A stretch of DNA of 64,000 bases from Meghimatium bilineatum (lineage: Eukaryota; Mollusca; Gastropoda; Stylommatophora; Philomycidae): positions 66,410,853-66,474,852 of the forward strand of contig CM067316.1 in NCBI GenBank assembly GCA_034231615.1, given 5' to 3'. Position 1 is the stretch's first letter. Each line of letters starts with the position of its first letter. Below the pieces are notes generated by a model. The model did not search any database. It was given only the letters and a program-made list of their open reading frames with translations, and had not been told where the DNA came from. Shown here in pieces: positions 4,655-61,884 of this stretch. The position numbers and the translations under genes were made by a program.

Positions 4655-4793
4655 TTGGCTGCCAACAGCATGTTCTTTCTATTGTGGAACTCGCCGGGAT
4701 CAATGTGTCTTGTGTTGTACTCGGCGATCTGTCTGGACGGAAACTCGGTTTCACAAAGGTAGGAGTAGTCTCGTGCTAAGCGGAGAGTCTCAC
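4655..4793 (-). CDS. TFAP2: TFAP2 exon 6 (start of helix-span-helix)
   Basis: The 139-bp exon reads [20 protein letters not shown], then [20 protein letters not shown] and MLLAA, with a split codon at each end. It matches the AP-2 segment that in vertebrates begins [20 protein letters not shown] and ends in RKNMLLATK. It is one codon shorter than the human exon as I recall it. The family uses this region for dimerisation. The acceptor ttgtttcag and donor CCAA|gtaaga are both good. The start ([12 protein letters not shown]) is more diverged than exons 4 and 5. A 1.5-kb tandem array stops about 14 bp beyond the donor. The final exon is not found between here and position 1. Confidence 0.93.
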
Positions 4794-7130: not shown

Positions 7131-7249
7131 CTTCAACCAATGAGGTCAGAAGTGTGACGTTAGCAGCTTTTCTGCGACCTGCAGGTAGGCTTAGCCCAAT
7201 TTTCTCCAACTTATCTCTCAACGATCGTCCACCATTTTTAGATTTTGCC
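7131..7249 (-). CDS. TFAP2: TFAP2 exon 5 (basic region)
   Basis: The 119-bp exon reads [18 protein letters not shown], then [22 protein letters not shown], nearly identical to vertebrate AP-2 over its whole length. It is the core of the basic DNA-binding segment that leads into the helix-span-helix domain. The donor is GAAG|gtaagt, a good match to consensus. The acceptor is ttgtaag with a moderate pyrimidine tract. The first base completes the split Arg codon of exon 4 and the last base starts the Gly codon completed in exon 6. A 30-bp tandem array ends about 50 bp from the donor side. Confidence 0.96.
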
Positions 7250-8654: not shown

Positions 8655-9190
8655 AACGGTACTTGGAAGATAAAATTAAAACATAAATAAGTCCAGAACA
8701 ATGTGGCTCTGTAGAAGGCAAAGTTACCAACAATGCTATATATATTTTGAGCACACTAATAGAGAGGTAAAAACAGATCTGTATCTCTGTTTTATAGACT
8801 ACACGAAAGCATTTGATAAAGTTAAACATAGTGAAGTTATACACATGCTAGAGAATTTGAACATCGACAGCAAGGATTTAAGAATCATCAAGAACATGTA
8901 CTGGCAACAAACAGCAGCAATAAAGGTAGGAAACCAATTTGGTCCTTTTCAACTAATAAAACAAGGAGTTAGACAGGGATGTGTACTTGCACTAGATACA
9001 GTGAAAACATGATGCGTGCAATAGCTGATATCCCAGGAATATCAGTGGGAGGACATAACATAAATAATTTGAGACATGCGGATGACACTGTTCTGATTGC
9101 AAAAAGCGAGGAAGACCTTCAAGATTTAATTAATGTAGTAGTCACAGAAAGTAAAGAGAAAGGTCTCTTCCTAAATATCAAGAAAACATA
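8655..9190 (+). mobile_element. LINE A (RTE-like), reverse transcriptase core
   Basis: It reads PEQCGSVEGKVTNNAIYIL, then LYLCFIDYTKAFDKVKH (RT motif with the first catalytic Asp), IKNMYWQQTAA, GVRQGCVL and, after a frame change, NNLRHADDTVLIAKSEEDL, where the usual YADD is HADD. It ends NIKKT at 9189, exactly where the 13-bp array begins. In the family the next residues are close to those that start the fragment at 141. The 5' end is truncated. Confidence 0.92.
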
Positions 9191-12100
9191 ACTACTTGGA
9201 GATACTACTTGGAGATACTATTTCGAGATATTACTTGGAGATACTACTTGGAGATACTACTTGGAGATACTACGTGCAGATACTACTTGGAGATACTACT
9301 TGGAGATACTACTTGGAGATACTACTTGGAGATACTACTTGGAGATACTACTTGGAGATACTACGTGGAGATACTACTTGGAGATACTACTTGGAGATAC
9401 TACTTGGAGATACTACTTGGAGATACTACTTGGAGATACTACTTGGAGATACTACTTGGAGATACTACGTGCAGATACTACTTGGAGATACTACTTGGAG
9501 ATACTACTTGGAGATACTACTTGGAGATACTACTTGGAGATACTACTTGGAGATACTACTTGGAGATACTACGTGCAGATACTACTTGGAGATACTACTT
9601 GGAGATACTACTTGGAGATACTACTTGGAGATAATATTTGGAGATAATATTTGGAGATACTACTTGGAGATAATATTTGGAGATAATATTTGGAGATACT
9701 ACTTGCAGATACTCGTTACAGATACTACTTGGAGATACTACGTGCAGATACTACTTGGAGATACTACTTGGAGATACTACTTGGAGATACTACTTGGAGA
9801 TACTACGTGCAGATACTACTTGGAGATACTACTTGGAGATACTCCTTGGAGATACTACTTGGAGATAATATTTGGAGATAATATTTGGAGATACTACTTG
9901 GAGATAATATTTGGAGATACTACTTGGAGATACTACATGGAGATACTACTTGGAGATACTACTTGGAGATACTACTTGGAGATACTACTTGGAGATACTA
10001 CTTGGAGATAATATTTGGAGATACTACTTGGAGATAATATTTGGAGATACTACTTGGAGATACTACATGGAGATACTACTTGGAGATACTACATGGAGAT
10101 ACTACTTGGAGATAATATTTGGAGATACTACTTGGAGATACTACATGGAGATACTACTTGGAGATACTACTTGGAGATACTACTTGGAGATACTACTTGG
10201 AGATACTACTTGGAGATAATATTTGGAGATACTACATGGAGATACTACTTGGAGATACTACTTGGAGATACTACTTGGAGATACTACATGGAGATACTAC
10301 TTGGAGATACTACATGGAGATACTACTTGGAGATAATATTTGGAGATACTACTTGGAGATACTACTTGGAGATACTACTTGGAGATACTACTTGGAGATA
10401 CTACTTGGAGATACTACTTGGAGATAATATTTGGAGATACTACTTGGAGATACTACTTGGAGATACTACTTGGAGATACTACTTGGAGATAATATTTGGA
10501 GATACTACTTGGAGATACTACTTGGAGATACTACTTGGAGATACTACTTGGAGATAATATTTGGAGATACTACTTGGAGATACTACTTGGAGATACTACT
10601 TGGAGATAATATTTGGAGATACTACTTGGAGATACTACATGGAGATACTACTTGGAGATACTACTTGGAGATACTACTTGGAGATACTACTTGGAGATAC
10701 TACTTGGAGATACTACTTGGAGATACTACTTGGAGATAATATTTGGAGATACTACTTGGAGATAATATTTGGAGATACTACTTGGAGATACTACATGGAG
10801 ATACTACTTGGAGATACTACATGGAGATACTACTTGGAGATAATATTTGGAGATACTACTTGGAGATACTACATGGAGATACTACTTGGAGATACTACTT
10901 GGAGATACTACTTGGAGATACTACTTGGAGATACTACTTGGAGATAATATTTGGAGATACTACATGGAGATACTACTTGGAGATACTACTTGGAGATACT
11001 ACTTGGAGATACTACATGGAGATACTACTTGGAGATACTACATGGAGATACTACTTGGAGATAATATTTGGAGATACTACTTGGAGATACTACGTGCAGA
11101 TACTACTTGGAGATACTACATGGAGATACTACTTGGAGATAATATTTGGAGATACTACTTGGAGATACTACGTGCAGATACTCCTTGGAGATACTACTTA
11201 GAGATATTACTTGGAGATATTACTTGCAGATACTCGTTACTGATACTACTTGGAGATACTACATGGAGATACTACTTGGAGATAATATTTGGAGATACTA
11301 CTTGGAGATACTACGTGCAGATACTCCTTGGAGATACTACTTGGAGATACTACTTGGAGATACTACTTGCAGATACTCGTTACTGATACTACTTGCAGAT
11401 ACTCGTTACAGATACTACTTGGAGATACTACTTGGAGATAATATTTGGAGATAATATTTGGAGATAATATTTGGAGATACTACTTGGAGATACTACTTGG
11501 AGATACTACTTGGAGATAATATTTGGAGATACTACATGGAGATACTACTTGGAGATAATATTTGGAGATACTACTTGGAGATACTACTTGGAGATACTAC
11601 TTGGAGATACTACTTGGAGATACTACATGGAGATACTACTTGGAGATAATATTTGGAGATACTACTTGGAGATACTACTTGGAGATACTACATGGAGATA
11701 CTACTTGGAGATAATATTTGGAGATACTACTTGGAGATACTACTTGGAGATACTACTTGGAGATACTACTTGGAGATACTACTTGGAGATAATATTTGGA
11801 GATACTACTTGGAGATACTACATGGAGATACTACTTGGAGATACTACATGGAGATACTACTTGGAGATAATATTTGGAGATACTACTTGGAGATACTACT
11901 TGGAGATACTACTTGGAGATACTACATGGAGATACTACTTGGAGATAATATTTGGAGATACTACTTGGAGATACTACATGGAGATACTACTTGGAGATAA
12001 TATTTGGAGATACTACGTGGAGATACTACATGGAGATACTACTTGGAGATACTACATGGAGATACTACTTGGAGATAATATTTGGAGATACTACTTGGAG

Positions 12101-21180: not shown

Positions 21181-24100
21181 AAGCGAAGATAAGTAAGTAT
21201 AGCATGAAAAACAATAAAAATGTGGTGAACAAGTAGAAAAAAAAACCATTTGTCATTAACTAATTTGGTTTGTCAGTTCGTACATGCCCGATGAGTCCGT
21301 ATCGTGCACAGAAAGTTCTACTGCAGTGCATGCAGGAGTACTGAGGGCAGGGCATGCAGGAGTACTGAGGGCAGTGCATGCAGGAGTACTGAGGGCAGTG
21401 CATGCAGGAGTACTGAGGGCAGTGCATGCATGAGTACTGAGGGCAGTGCATGCAGGAGTACTGAGGGCAGTGCATGCATGAGTACTGAGGGCAGTGCATG
21501 CAGGAGTACTGAGGGCAGTGCATGCATGAGTACTGAGGGCAGTGCATGCATGAGTACTGAGGGCAGTGCATGCAGGAGTACTGAGGGCAGTGCATGTATG
21601 AGTACTGAGGGCAGTGCATGCAGGAGTACTGAGGGCAGTGATTGCATGAGTACTGAGGGCAGTGCATGCAGGAGTACTGAGGGCAGTGCATGCAGGAGTA
21701 CTGAGGGCAGTGCATGCAGGAGTACTGAGGGCAATGCATGCATGAGTACTGAGGGCAGTGCATGCATGAGTACTGAGGGCAGTGCATGCATGAGTACTGA
21801 GGGCAGTGCATGCAGGAGTACTGAGGGCAGTGCATGCATGAGTACTGAGGGCAGTGCATGCAGGAGTACTGAGGGCAGTGCATGTATGAGTACTGAGGGC
21901 AGTGCATGCAGGAGTACTGAGGGCAGTGCATGTATGAGTACTGAGGGCAGTGCATGCAGGAGTACTGAGGGCAGTGCATGCAGGAGTACTGAGGGCAGTG
22001 CATGCAGGAGTACTGAGGGCAATGCATGCATGCGTACTGAGGGCAGTGCATGCATGAGTACTGAGGGCAGTGCATGCAGGAGTACTGAGGGCAGTGCATG
22101 CAGGAGTACTGAGGGCAGTGCATGCATGAGTACTGAGGGCAGTGCATGCAGGAGTACTGAGGGCAGTTCATGCATGAGTACTGAGGGCAGTGCATGCAGG
22201 AGTACTGAGGGCAGTGCATGCAGGATTACTGAGGGCAGTGCATGCAGGAGTACTGAGGGCAGTGCATGCAGGAGTACTGAGGGCAGTGCATGCAGGAGTA
22301 CTGAGGGCAGTGCATGCATGAGTACTGAGGGCAGTGCATGCAGGAGTACTGAGGGCAGTGCATGCATGAGTACTGAGGGCAGTGCATGCAGGAGTACTGA
22401 GGGCAGTGCATGCAGGAGTACTGAGGGCAGTGCATGCATGAGTACTGAGGGCAGTGCATGCAGGAGTACTGAGGGCAGTGCATGCAGGAGTACTGAGGGC
22501 AGTGCATGCAGGAGTACTGACGGCAGTGCATGCAGGAGTACTGAGGGCAGTGCATGCAGGAGTACTGACGGCAGTGCATGCAGGAGTACTGAGGGCAGTG
22601 CATGCAGGAGTACTGAGGGCAGTGCATGCATGAGTACTGAGGGCAGTGCATGCAGGAGTACTGAGGGCATTGCATGCAGGAGTACTGAGGGCAGTGCATG
22701 CAGGAGTACTGACGGCAGTGCATGCAGGAGTACTGAGGGCAGTGCATGCAGGAGTACTGAGGGCAGTGCATGCAGGAGTACTGAGGGCAGTGCATGCAGG
22801 AGTACTGAGGGCAGTGCATACAGGAGTACTGAGGGCAGTGCATGCAGGAGTACTGAGGGCAGTGCATGCAGGAGTACTGAGGGCAGTGCATGCAGGAGTA
22901 CTGAGGGCAGTGCATGCATGAGTACTGAGGGCAGTGCATGCAGGAGTACTGAGGGCAGTGCATGCAGGATTACTGAGGGCAGTGCATGCAGGAGTACTGA
23001 GGGCAGTGCATGCAGGAGTACTGAGGGCAGTGCATGCAGGAGTACTGAGGGCAGTGCATGCAGGAGTACTGAGGGTTCGGCGTAGGGAGATTTTCGGATT
23101 TTTTCTTTCGTTTCCGTCTCCTAGGAACTAGGATCGATGCTGCAGTGCTGGAGAGAGTTCTTTAGGTGATTCTTGAAGCTCTTTTTCTGCCCTCCGCTTG
23201 AACGTTTTCCATCGCACAGCTCCCCATAGAATAATCTATTTGGAAGGCGCTTGTCTGACATACGGACGATATGGCTAGTCCAGCGGAGTTGGGACCTAGT
23301 CAGCAGGGTATGGATGCTTTGCCCACGTGACTTAAAGAATTTCCGTGTCTGGTACACGATCCTGCTAACGTACTCCCTTGAGGTTTCTTAGGTACCGAAG
23401 GTAGAAAGAGTTAAGCTGTCGAGAGTGTCTCGCATAGACAGTCCAGCAAGACGCAGCATAAAGCAGTGTTGGTAGAACCACTGCGCGGTACACGTCCAAC
23501 TTCAAACTGAGACCACGCTTGATCCAGACTGAACCTAGTCAATTATCGTATTTTGCGATAGGCTGCCAAGATAGGCCTATACAAACTTATTGGCAGTTTT
23601 AAGTTTCTATCCCTTTACTGTGATTACTGGACACCTGGCGCTGGTTGATATATTACTAATGTCATCGCAGTGCTGATGGCGAGACCGAATGCATCACAGG
23701 CCAAAGAAAAGAGGTCCATGCTGTCCTGCATATCTTTCAGATTGTTGGCGTTGAGTGCAGAATCGTCGACGAACAAGAGGTCGCGAACAATGTCCGTCTT
23801 AGTTTTGATCTTGACCCTTAATCTACTAAGAATGAATTGCTCTCGTCAGCTCGAAGGCAAAAGCAGATTCTGCAGTGTTATTCTGGAATACATCATTTAA
23901 CATGGCAGAGAACATCATGCTGAAGAACGTCAGAACCAGGACAAAACCCTGTTTGACACCGTTAGTTACTGGAAATAGGTTTGAGTATGCGCCATCATCT
24001 TGCACACAGGCTGTCATACCATCATGGAAATGGCGAACCATGTTGGTGAATTTTCGGGGCATCCAAATTTGGACATGATCTTCAATAATGCTTCGCAATT

Positions 24101-24465
24101 TATAGTGTCGAATGCCTTAGTTAGGTCGAAAAATATGGTGTAGAGACCAATGTTCGGTTTGTGACACTTGTCTTGTTGTTGTCTGGCAGTGAATATCATG
24201 TCCACAGTACCTCTACCTTGTCATAAGTTACATTGGCTCTCTGGGAGGAGACCCGCCCAAGATAGGCTTGCAGTCTATTTAGCAGGACTCTCACCAAGAT
24301 CTTGTCTGCTATAGAGAGCAGGGATATACCTCGGTGGTTGTCGCAAGCTAGGCGATTTCCTTTTCTCTTGTATAGATATATGTTGGAAGAATCCTTACAG
24401 TCTTTTGGTATCTCTTCCAGGTTCCACATCGTCGGGAACAGTTCTATGAGTTTAGCAGTCGTAAC
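21181..24465 (-). mobile_element. LINE B, RT to zinc-knuckle end, interrupted by its own 24-bp array
   Basis: Minus frames read LIELFPTMWNLEEIPKDCKD, LYKRKGNRLACDNHRGISLL, IFFDLTKAFDTINCEAL, FHDGMTACVQDDGAYSN, VTNGVKQGFVL, LLFVDDSALNA, then LLTRSQLRWTSHIVRMSDKR and LFYGELCDGKRSSGGQKK. After the 24-bp array it resumes with CMHCSRTFCARYGLIGHVRT, the C-terminal zinc-knuckle-like end of this family. There are several frameshifts and stops. A region between the RT active site and LLTRSQ is missing or unrecognisable. Clade not assigned. Confidence 0.88.
21326..23074. repeat. 24-bp minisatellite inside LINE B, ~73 copies
   Basis: Unit gcatgcaggagtactgaggg plus cagt. Most variation is caggag versus catgag, plus a rarer ctgacgg form. 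As 24 is a multiple of three, several frames are open for the full length (up to 593 codons); the LINE-sense frame reads CMHCPQYS repeats leading into the real LINE end CMHCSRTF. It is an expanded piece of LINE sequence, not an independent gene. Confidence 0.98.
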
Positions 24466-25235
24466 AGGGAACAGTCATATCAGTACATTAAACATCATGA
24501 CATCAGTACAGTTACAACCATGATGACATCAGTACACTTACAGACATGACAACATCAGTACACTTACATACATCATGACATCAGTAAAGTGACAGACATG
24601 ACGACATCAGTACACTTACAGACATCATGACATCAGTAAAGTGACAGACATGACTATATTACAGTCATGACAACTTCAGTACACTTACATACACCATACC
24701 ATCAATAAATTGACAGACATAACGACATCAGTACACTTACAGACATCATGACATCAGTACACTTACAGACATCATGACATCAGTACACTTACAGACATCA
24801 TAACAACAGTACTGTAGCAAACATCATGACATCAGTACACTTACAGACATTATGACATCAGTACACTTACAGACATCATGACATAAATAAAGTGACAGAT
24901 TTAACGACATCAGTAGTGTTGCAAACATCATGACATCAGTACACTTACAGACATCATGACATCAGTACACTTACAGACATCATGACATAATTACTGTTGC
25001 AAACATCATGACATCAGTACACTTACAGACATCATGACATCAGTACACTTACAGACATCATAACATCAGTACACGTACAGACACCATGACATCAGTACAC
25101 TTACAGACATCATGACATCAAAACACTTACAGACACAATGACATCAGTACACTTACAGACATCATGACATCAGTACACTTACAGAAATCATGACATCGGT
25201 ACACTTAAAGACATCATGATATCCATATAGTAAGA
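24466..25235. repeat. Minisatellite, 26 bp x ~29
   Basis: Units catgacatcagtacacttac plus agacat. Diverged near the LINE B junction and more uniform in the middle. It ends about 70 bp from the donor side of TFAP2 exon 4. Confidence 0.95.
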
Positions 25236-25306: not shown

Positions 25307-25511
25307 CTCCGTAAGACACCCCCTAGAAGTGAAGCGTTCAGACATTCAGGCGGAGATAAACGCCTCTGCACCTCGGCAACGGTGACCTTATATTTGGAGG
25401 TAGAACTCAACAGAGACAGGCGACCTGGCACCGAACAGAATACATCACCTGATGATACAACATGCGACGACACAATCAGGTCTTTGCTGTTCTCATTCTT
25501 TGGTCGTATAC
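25307..25511 (-). CDS. TFAP2: TFAP2 exon 4 (start of DNA-binding domain)
   Basis: This 205-bp exon encodes 67 codons plus split ends. After a variable start ([10 protein letters not shown]) it holds the most conserved AP-2 block: [38 protein letters not shown] and SLLGGVLRR. In the family this block begins the basic DNA-binding region. The donor is CGGAG|gtatgt. The acceptor is gtgcag|GTATACG. This 3' splice site is itself the unit of a tandem array running away from the exon, so near-identical acceptor copies lie every 43 bp upstream. The chosen site is the exon-proximal one: it gives the phase needed by exon 3, and one unit upstream would change the frame. Confidence 0.96.
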
Positions 25512-25890
25512 CTGCACATGTAAACATAGAAACATGTTACTGGTGGTCGTATACCTGTACAGGTAAGCATAGAAACATGTTACTGGTGGTCGTATACCTG
25601 TACAGGTAAACATAGAAACATGTTACTGGTGGTCGTATACCTGCACATGTAAACATAGAAACATGTTACTGGTGGTCGTATACCTGTACAGGTAAGCATA
25701 GAAACATGTTACTGGTGGTCGTATACCTGTACAGGTAAGCATAGAAACATGTTACTGGTGGTCGTATACCTGTACAGGTAAGCATAGAAACATATTATTT
25801 TTTGTATTATATATGCACACTTGAACGTGGAAACATATTACTGTTAGTCGTATACCTGTACATGAAAGCATATGATTACTGGCCGCATAT
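25499..25890. repeat. 43-bp array built from the TFAP2 exon 4 acceptor, ~9 units
   Basis: Units start at the exon border: tggtcgtatacctgtacagg then taaacatagaaacatgttac. The cctg anchor recurs at 25511, 25554, 25597, 25640, 25683, 25726, 25769 and 25855 (the 25812 unit is decayed). On the gene strand each carries cag|gtatacgacc, the same 3' splice site as the exon. The first unit includes the first 11 or so exon bases. Confidence 0.95.
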
Positions 25891-26122
25891 CTGCACTGAC
25901 AAACATTGAATTACTGGCCGCATATCTGCACTGACAAAAATTGAATTACTGGCCGCATATCTGCACTGACAAACATTGAATTACTGGCCGCATATCTGCA
26001 CTGACAAACATTGAATTACTGGCCGCATATCTGCACTGACAAACATTGAATTACTGGCCGCATATCTGCACTGACAAACATTGAATTACTGGCCGCATAT
26101 CTGCACTGACAAACATTGAATT
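25868..26122. repeat. 35-bp array, decayed relative of the 43-bp array, x7
   Basis: Units gaattactggccgcatatct plus gcactgacaaacatt. They align with the 43-bp unit (ttactgg..cgtatacctg..caggtaaacat) with deletions, so they look like an older expansion that kept an AG at the acceptor position (gene strand gtgcag|atatgcgg). Confidence 0.9.
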
Positions 26123-26219
26123 ATTGATAGTACAGATAAATGAAAAATAATACCAAAGGTCTAATAATGCTGCCCTGTACATAGGTATACAGGTATACTT
26201 GAAAGAAGAATGGCTTAGA

Positions 26220-26640
26220 TCACGAAGATTAGACAGGATGATTAACACCTGGTCAGTAAGTCTAGCACAGAACAGGATGATTAACACCTGGTCAGTAAGT
26301 CTAGCACAGAACAGGATGATTAACACCTGGTCAGTAAGTCTAGCACAGAACAGGATGATTAACACCTGGTCATTAAGACTAGGACATGATATAATGATTA
26401 ACACCTGGTCAGTAAGACAGGACAGGAAGATTAACTGGTCAGTAAGACTAGGCAGGGCATGATGATTAACTGGGACAGTACATGATGATTAACTGGGACA
26501 GTACATGATGATTAACTGTGACAGTACATGATGATTAACTGGGACAGTACATGATGATTAACTGGGACAGTACATGATGATTAACTAGGACAGGATGATT
26601 AACTAGTACAAGATGATTAATTAGAACAGGATTATTAACA
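26220..26640. repeat. Minisatellites, 39 bp x ~5 then 23 bp x ~6
   Basis: The first part has cagaacaggatgattaacac plus ctggtcagtaagtctagca. From about 26455 the unit shortens to gatgattaactgggacagta plus cat. Both share gatgattaac, so the second arose from the first. Confidence 0.93.
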
Positions 26641-36340: not shown

Positions 36341-36395
36341 CTTTTCTAATAATGGAGTGATGTTCCAAGTGCAGATACGAACTTCCATCATCGAT
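36341..36395 (-). CDS. TFAP2: TFAP2 exon 3 (short linker exon)
   Basis: This 55-bp exon was found by phase and motif. The acceptor is agccacag and the donor is AAAAG|gtaagc. It reads IDDGSSYLHLEHHSIIRK plus one base of a Gly codon. The position and the ending IIRKG correspond to the small exon of vertebrate AP-2 that ends VIKKG, which is 52 bp as I recall. Exon 2 ends in phase 0 and exon 4 starts with two bases, so the junctions fit on both sides. Being short it is the least certain of the five exons, but two good splice sites plus phase plus motif make chance unlikely. A Tc1 fragment ends about 280 bp away on the low side. Confidence 0.8.
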
Positions 36396-61425: not shown

Positions 61426-61884
61426 CTGATTAGTGTCATCCACAGCTCCAAGGGAATTTGAGTGAAGGTTAAGTAGGGAAGCGTCTTGGTCAATCGCGAG
61501 GCCATGATGATGACCATGATGCATTACCTCTGGTCTTCTAAGTCCAGCCATGTAGTCAGGTCGACGAGTATCATAGCCAGTAAGTGCATGATGCATAGTA
61601 TCCTCTCTGTGGGCTAGAATAGTTCTTTCTGCTGCATGCAACTGGTTGTATTGCTGACCAGTTTGTTGGAATGGATTCACGTGACCGTACGGATCTACCT
61701 GATGAGAATGAAAGTCCATGGTTTGCTGAGATTGGTACGGAGGAGGAAAGTATGGAGGCTGAAAATCAGTAGAACCAACAGGAGTGTGGCTGAGCCTAGG
61801 AGCTGCAGAAAACGGACCAGAGCTTGTGCTGACCAAATGACCAAAACTGCCATGAGTGCCCACTAGGTCTGGCCGACGATCCAC
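61426..61884 (-). CDS. TFAP2: TFAP2 exon 2 (activation region)
   Basis: This exon of 153 codons, phase 0 at both ends, encodes the N-terminal transactivation region of a nuclear AP-2 transcription factor. It starts VDRRPDLVG, matching the DRHDG start of vertebrate exon 2. About 33 codons in it carries LSHTPVGSTDFQPPYFPPPY, the AP-2 signature with its PY motif, followed by DPYGHVNPF. The rest is rich in His, Gln and Pro (for example HHGHHHG) and ends AVDDTNQ. The acceptor is a pyrimidine-rich tract ending in cctag. The donor CAG|gttagg departs from consensus. A tandem array starts about 13 bp beyond the donor. An open frame runs past the donor into the intron and is not coding. Confidence 0.95.

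Follow-up and report, generated by a model that had tools for sequence, protein, structure and literature searches.

A mirage minisatellite over the acceptor of a TFAP2 exon in the slug Meghimatium bilineatum

Of the two TFAP2 copies of Meghimatium bilineatum, one has its exon 4 acceptor repeated in the upstream intron by a mirage minisatellite, a tandem array whose unit spans the splice junction. We found the copies of this junction, their common register, their direction from the exon into the intron, and the recurrence of such arrays at other exons of the same genome. The explanation that we consider probable is that ordinary minisatellite turnover caught a splice junction, and that the acceptor nearest to exon 4 is the one in use.

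The TFAP2 gene and its fourth exon

The window is the whole stretch of DNA that was analysed, 64,000 nucleotides located about 0.5 Mb from the end of contig 19. The gene on its minus strand is TFAP2, the identity already given in the preliminary description, with PF03299 matches in exons here and in another copy on contig 18. These are the two TFAP2 copies of the genome (32 contigs, 1,612,235,226 bases). Such a pair fits the genome duplication that PMC12328838 places in the ancestry of Stylommatophora. As a separate observation, a phosphatase gene pair (L132 and L155) and the TFAP2 pair both lie on contigs 18 and 19 (31.5 and 34.0 Mb; 61.0 and 66.4 Mb), the arrangement that a duplicated block would give.

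The exons placed in the window are the following, with a slash marking the splice junction.

61426..61884, minus strand: TFAP2 exon 2, phase-0 end at AATCAG/gttagg
36341..36395, minus strand: TFAP2 exon 3 (IDDGSSYLHLEHHSIIRK+G), phase-1 end at AGAAAAG/gtaagc, tblastn counterpart on contig 18
25307..25511, minus strand: TFAP2 exon 4, 205 nt, acceptor cag/GTATACG at 25511, donor GGAG/gtatgt, PF03299 match with edges checked
7131..7249, minus strand: TFAP2 exon 5, edges by eye
4655..4793, minus strand: TFAP2 exon 6, edges by eye

Exon 3 was located by a scan for the motif at a donor and confirmed by tblastn (E 1.3e-4 for the contig 18 counterpart); the motif by itself, plain DNA comparison and candidate pairing did not locate it. 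An alternative acceptor 6 nt further upstream is also possible for this exon. Exon 4 is flanked by introns of 10.8 kb and about 18 kb.

In terms of the real acceptor, exon 4 is preceded by tttacatgtgcag and starts at 25511. The phase-1 end of exon 3 matches the opening phase at this base, and the join gives an open frame. In the contig 18 copy, ttctgttcag/GTATCCGTGCAAAGAAC is found at the same codon. The last 60 intron bases of the two copies have no similarity (local score 7.5, with a shuffled mean of 8.5). Since the exons are alike, these intron bases are dissimilar, and both phase and junction agree, the coding sequence can be taken to start at this junction in both copies. The comparison of the two copies confirms 25511 as the real acceptor of exon 4.

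Exon 4 has 62 of 68 residues equal between the two copies, with 39 synonymous and 6 nonsynonymous codon differences. Because the exon is so strongly constrained, the window copy can be taken to function despite the array.

Copies of the acceptor in intron 3

CAG/GTATACGAC stands at the real acceptor and at seven further sites, all of them in a 43-bp array, with AG/GT at every copy. The string CAGGTATACGAC has eight minus-strand occurrences in the window and none on the other strand. The first exon-side bases of the eight copies are at 25511 (real), 25554, 25597, 25640, 25683, 25726, 25769 and 25855.

25501..25872, minus strand: 43-bp array, TRF period 43, 8.7 copies, 87% matches; the unit spans the intron 3/exon 4 junction, 11 exon bases included
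25554..25555, minus strand: decoy acceptor +43 nt, palindromic type
25597..25598, minus strand: decoy acceptor +86 nt, palindromic type
25640..25641, minus strand: decoy acceptor +129 nt, equal to the real site from -32 to +11
25683..25684, minus strand: decoy acceptor +172 nt, palindromic type
25726..25727, minus strand: decoy acceptor +215 nt, palindromic type
25769..25770, minus strand: decoy acceptor +258 nt, palindromic type
25770..25855, minus strand: 86-bp stretch with one degenerate 43-bp slot (about 25812) without acceptor
25855..25856, minus strand: decoy acceptor +344 nt, variant GTATACGACT

Mismatches to the real site, counted from -32 to +11 and in order from 25554 to 25855, are 3, 2, 0, 3, 3, 7 and 16. 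All 11 exon bases are matched in six of the seven decoys, and 10 of 11 in the 25855 copy. The boundary that the unit spans is fixed by the phase of exon 3 and by the contig 18 copy. Splice signals are carried by the copies (the seven CAG/GTATACGAC decoys, and seven TGCAG in the 35-bp type described below), and the authentic exon is intact at the edge of the array, with its open frame and its 62 of 68 residues equal to those of the contig 18 copy.

About nine near-identical acceptors, one every 43 bp, had been described previously. The array does copy the junction, but the copies number eight, seven decoys plus the real site. The 43-bp spacing holds for six decoys and breaks at the degenerate slot near 25812, which leaves a gap of 86 bp.

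As for the contig 18 copy, no array was found at its exon 4 junction (TRF over 3.1 kb, exon start at base 1430 of L006). The only TRF entries in this region are a two-copy 40-bp repeat, upstream of the exon by about 1.3 kb, and on the downstream side an array of 25 bp. The 11 shared bases of the decoys follow the contig 19 exon, including positions where contig 18 differs. Because the contig 18 copy has the same junction without the array, the exon must predate the array, which was copied from it later. The repeats were thus seeded by the exon.

The AG/GT at every copy invites another reading, in which the copies are recursive-splicing points: exon 3 joined to a decoy, a join that would read AAAAG/GTATAC, rebuilds a donor and splices on to a later copy. 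We regard this as very improbable. GTATAC is without the usual G at position 5 and looks by eye like a poor donor, and AG/GT is found in the contig 18 copy without any array, so the motif would be the exon's own first bases.

The 35-bp array and its neighbours

Further into the intron, another array was found.

25875..26123, minus strand: 35-bp array, TRF period 35, 7.1 copies, 99% matches; seven copies of TGCAG/ATATGCGGCC

The string TGCAGATATGCGGCC has seven occurrences in the window. When compared in the same register, the 35-bp and 43-bp units reach an alignment score of 38 at rotation 0, with a maximum of 32 in 2000 shuffles. As this alignment beats all shuffles, the 35-bp unit is a relative of the 43-bp unit. 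Seven 35-bp units with an AG at the same place are present, as first described; the view of this array as older and decayed is unsupported, because its copies are more alike (99%) than those of the 43-bp array (87%). The C2 arrays were rejected as relatives of the 35-bp array, with only AT-rich words in common by eye.

Behind the 35-bp array, at 26233-26639 of the window, there are arrays of 39, 23, 18 and 36 bp, whose consensus units share ATGATTAAC, like successive offshoots. On the other side, just downstream of exon 4 (24479-25223), we observed an array with a 26/52-bp unit, in about 28 copies, with a donor-like GTAAGT on the gene strand. By eye, this array is not a copy of the exon 4 donor.

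In the reading that we favour, a segment of about 43 bp (32 bp of the end of intron 3 and 11 bp of exon 4) would have been duplicated in tandem, and the copies would have multiplied away from the exon, into the intron. The 35-bp array would have arisen as an offshoot of the 43-bp unit, and exon 4 would have been left intact at the array edge.

Junction-spanning arrays at other exons

The preliminary description lacks both the recurrence at other exons of the same genome and the fact that the kind has been described before.

The sample for the survey consisted of 130 exon matches, taken from myosin (50 of 67 rows), kinesin (40 of 123), T-box (20 of 41) and tyrosine phosphatase (20 of 136). For myosin, thirty loci are the top 30 matches. 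The remaining hundred exons mostly follow the order of the listing, without stop-bearing rows, frames of a long single exon and some near-duplicates; at least one more row was missed by mistake. The test asked for a 12-base word in the outer 45 bases that recurs within 170 bases of flank, over 260 match edges, these being edges of domain matches rather than proven exon edges. Words with fewer than three different letters were dropped. The first run (n=118) included 8 TFAP2 loci, which were left out of the final count.

With 12-base words, 5 of the 260 edges were positive (shuffled mean 0.12, maximum 1 in 50 shuffles). The count was 4 edges with 14-base words (shuffled 0.02) and 5 with 11-base words (shuffled 0.62). 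With 10-base words it was 7 (shuffled mean 1.98, maximum 7), and the excess over chance is then no longer clear. Junction-spanning arrays were found at 5 of the 130 sampled exons, in four other families, with boundaries set by eye.

L044, 1647-1852: myosin donor, TTGTTAGAAAAG/gtaatc repeated
L070: kinesin donor, CTTCTTCAG/gtaagc in 47-bp steps
L090: T-box donor, 46-bp steps
L130: phosphatase acceptor, cttctcag/GGCTTAAACTC in 53-bp steps
L132: phosphatase donor, 47-bp steps

At the T-box exon, the acceptor too is overlain by an array, of 29 bp. This makes a sixth edge, which failed the word test and was spotted on reading. In the kinesin case, TAAGC is present in the exon and in the donor, at both unit ends, which suggests that the unit may have been duplicated through short homology. 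The contig 19 counterpart of L132 (L155) is without array. L154, a neighbouring copy of the L130 gene, keeps the array, and its unit nearest the exon shares the exon's own variants. Unit turnover is visible between these two similar neighbouring genes.

The test undercounts, because exon 4 of TFAP2 itself (L005), whose domain match starts inside the exon, scored nothing in the first run. In the two TFAP2 copies, a junction-spanning repeat was absent at 11 of the 12 exons tested (exons 2-7), a weak negative since several of the edges came from domain matches and miss the true exon edge by as much as about a dozen bases. Two other candidates were rejected as mirages: the array of L050 is intronic, and the word shared in L126 is a single 10-mer.

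Tandem arrays are hard to assemble, and the copy number may be off. Even so, there is very little chance that the TFAP2 array as a whole is an artefact of assembly or sequencing. The reads are reported as PacBio HiFi with a mean of 18.6 kb (PMC10770140), about thirty times the array length. The 43-bp units differ among themselves in a patterned way, and L130 and L154 have arrays of one kind, with variants particular to each of the two genes.

Tandem repeats in the genome

The assembly is reported to have 25 pseudo-chromosomes and seven unanchored scaffolds, with 1.61 Gb and 19.46% tandem repeats by TRF (PMC10770140). Tandem arrays cover 50.0% of the window. The figure is 16.9% for a 90-kb region surrounding the contig 18 copy, and 9.2% for the 30 myosin loci. 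With half of the window covered, an array near an exon is expected there; the specific part is the unit that spans the junction.

Around the 130 matches, arrays of period 10 or more cover 13.6% at 121-170 nt outside, 15.6% at 61-120, 11.8% at 31-60 and 7.0% at 1-30. Inside the matches, the same measure gives 2.6% in the first 30 nt and 0.2% deeper. As coverage falls from introns into exons, junction-spanning arrays are the expected tail of a minisatellite-rich genome. Special seeding of arrays at splice sites is not needed, given that edge coverage is below intron coverage. These results suggest that mirages are a plain by-product of such a genome. In the case of TFAP2, the splice junction would have been caught up in the ordinary turnover of minisatellites, with tandem repeats making up about one fifth of this genome.

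Distances to the contig ends are smaller for the mirage exons than for the other exons (5 versus 125, p 0.014, tested after seeing the data), which is suggestive only of a chromosome-end bias.

Choice between the acceptors

Splicing to a decoy was modelled for seven sites in the 43-bp array and two in the 35-bp array, and all nine give a premature stop, either in the array or early in exon 4. Use of the nearest decoy would shift the frame, as stated in the preliminary description. Occasional decoy use would give a premature-stop mRNA.

Under the reading that we favour, the spliceosome would pick the exon-proximal acceptor, with exon 4 recognised by exon definition. This choice would follow from the exon being short between long introns, and from a purine-rich exon sequence (by eye) that follows only the real site. 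Counting against it, the real site and one of the decoys do not differ at all from -32 to +11, and in four other decoys only 2 or 3 bases are changed. In the minigene results taken here from PMC9225289, the nearest of identical 5' sites across the exon is used when introns are long. For 3' sites under exon definition, the preference for the upstream site was significantly reduced, not reversed, so decoy use is possible. The exon-proximity rule explains donors well, but PMC9225289 does not settle the TFAP2 acceptor, since for acceptors it gives only a weakened upstream preference.

In amphioxus, globin RT-PCR and Adh3 data are reported to suggest no interference with regular splicing (PMC3087553), and the Adh and troponin C mirages are told to give no aberrant mRNA (PMC3902484). 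Faithful use of 25511 is what we would most likely expect.

A different outcome is that the decoys are used appreciably, possibly in a regulated or allele-dependent way, and that the array lowers the TFAP2 output of the window copy via early-stop mRNAs. Most decoys are near-identical to the real site, an intron-centred proximity rule would favour upstream acceptors (PMC9225289), and the stops in all nine modelled decoys would give this effect. We nevertheless hold it to be improbable, given that exon 4 is still strongly constrained, that the amphioxus mirages are reported without aberrant mRNA (PMC3087553, PMC3902484) and that the contig 18 copy is without array.

Decoys might also silence themselves, with the palindrome-bearing ones pairing with one another in the pre-mRNA and the real acceptor being more open. 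Of the seven CAG/GTATACGAC decoys, five carry the string TACCTGTACAGGTA, a perfect 14-base palindrome over the AG. It is missing from the real site, where two letters differ. Over 8 fold settings, the predicted chance of an unpaired AG is 0.00-0.16 for the palindromic decoys (with one value of 0.45) and 0.10-0.40 for the real site. When the five palindromic units were given the real site's letters in silico, in one setting, the values rose from 0.00-0.16 to 0.29-0.63, but in that same control the real site also rises, from 0.26 to 0.48.

Most fold settings also predict the real site itself to be largely paired. In most of them the decoy at 25640 (0.04-0.45) is at least as open as the real site, and the decoy at 25855 reaches 0.34. 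Moreover, folding of long RNA without proteins is unreliable, the idea was formed after seeing the sequence, and the decoys of the other mirages look by eye like plain copies. We consider self-silencing unlikely. Also doubtful is a wider version, where mirage arrays are present at a few percent of slug exons (thousands genome-wide if the sample holds) and some of them, e.g. that of TFAP2, would have acquired self-complementary decoys, hidden by folding of the pre-mRNA, selfish repeat and splice code being mutually adapted.

Relation to known systems

The TFAP2 array belongs to a known kind, the mirage minisatellites of amphioxus. Canestro 2002 is said to be a study of amphioxus Adh.

The amphioxus mirages, in globin, Adh3, troponin C and PGBD5, are described as minisatellite-like tandem duplications over the intron/exon boundary, at donors and acceptors (PMC3087553, PMC3902484), and those of the slug are alike in this. 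In both cases many copies keep the AG or GT and the genes stay functional, and the 43-bp unit is within the 10-72 bp told for Adh3 in the same two sources. Unlike the amphioxus examples, the slug case is from a mollusc and concerns several genes, unrelated to one another, within a single genome (5 of the 130 exons sampled), and two of its arrays are absent from the second gene copy.

In human genes of segmental duplications, variation of boundary minisatellites is reported to change splice patterns in some cases (PMC2812944). The human repeats described there are in exons or form new introns, whereas the slug copies are in an existing intron.

Intron gain by AGGT tandem duplication, as told for a potato RdRp gene (PMC4974935) and in the Rogers model as given in PMC3087553, likewise duplicates an AG/GT segment and leaves copies with splice signals. 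Unlike these cases, the slug array made no new intron or exon, and lengthened an existing intron. A new intron with duplicated ends was not found here: in the contig 18 copy the intron stands at the same position, and the array is absent.

In the literature covered, mainly titles and the starts of abstracts, with most subscription papers outside it, no mollusc report of junction-repeating tandem arrays was found. The covered part of a Conus paper (PMC3862624) has microsatellites in introns and no repeated boundaries. No earlier rate of mirages was found in the portions of the mirage literature that were covered. The present results extend mirages from lancelets to a mollusc, with a rough rate of 5 in 130 exons.

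The choice between identical splice sites has so far been tested in hand-built minigenes, such as those reported in PMC9225289. Where a genome holds natural rows of near-identical donors and acceptors, in some cases along with an array-free second copy that can serve as control, existing RNA-seq would make it possible to measure the exon-proximity rule in endogenous genes.

Other observations

Open frames that by eye resemble fragments of a non-LTR element reverse transcriptase are present at 141-644, 8680-9191 and 23624-24474 of the window. Elsewhere in the genome, a mitochondrial COX1-like fragment was found inside contig 2 (L023), probably a nuclear insertion. Finally, PF14830, a molluscan haemocyanin domain, has 50 matches in the genome, in keeping with a mollusc.
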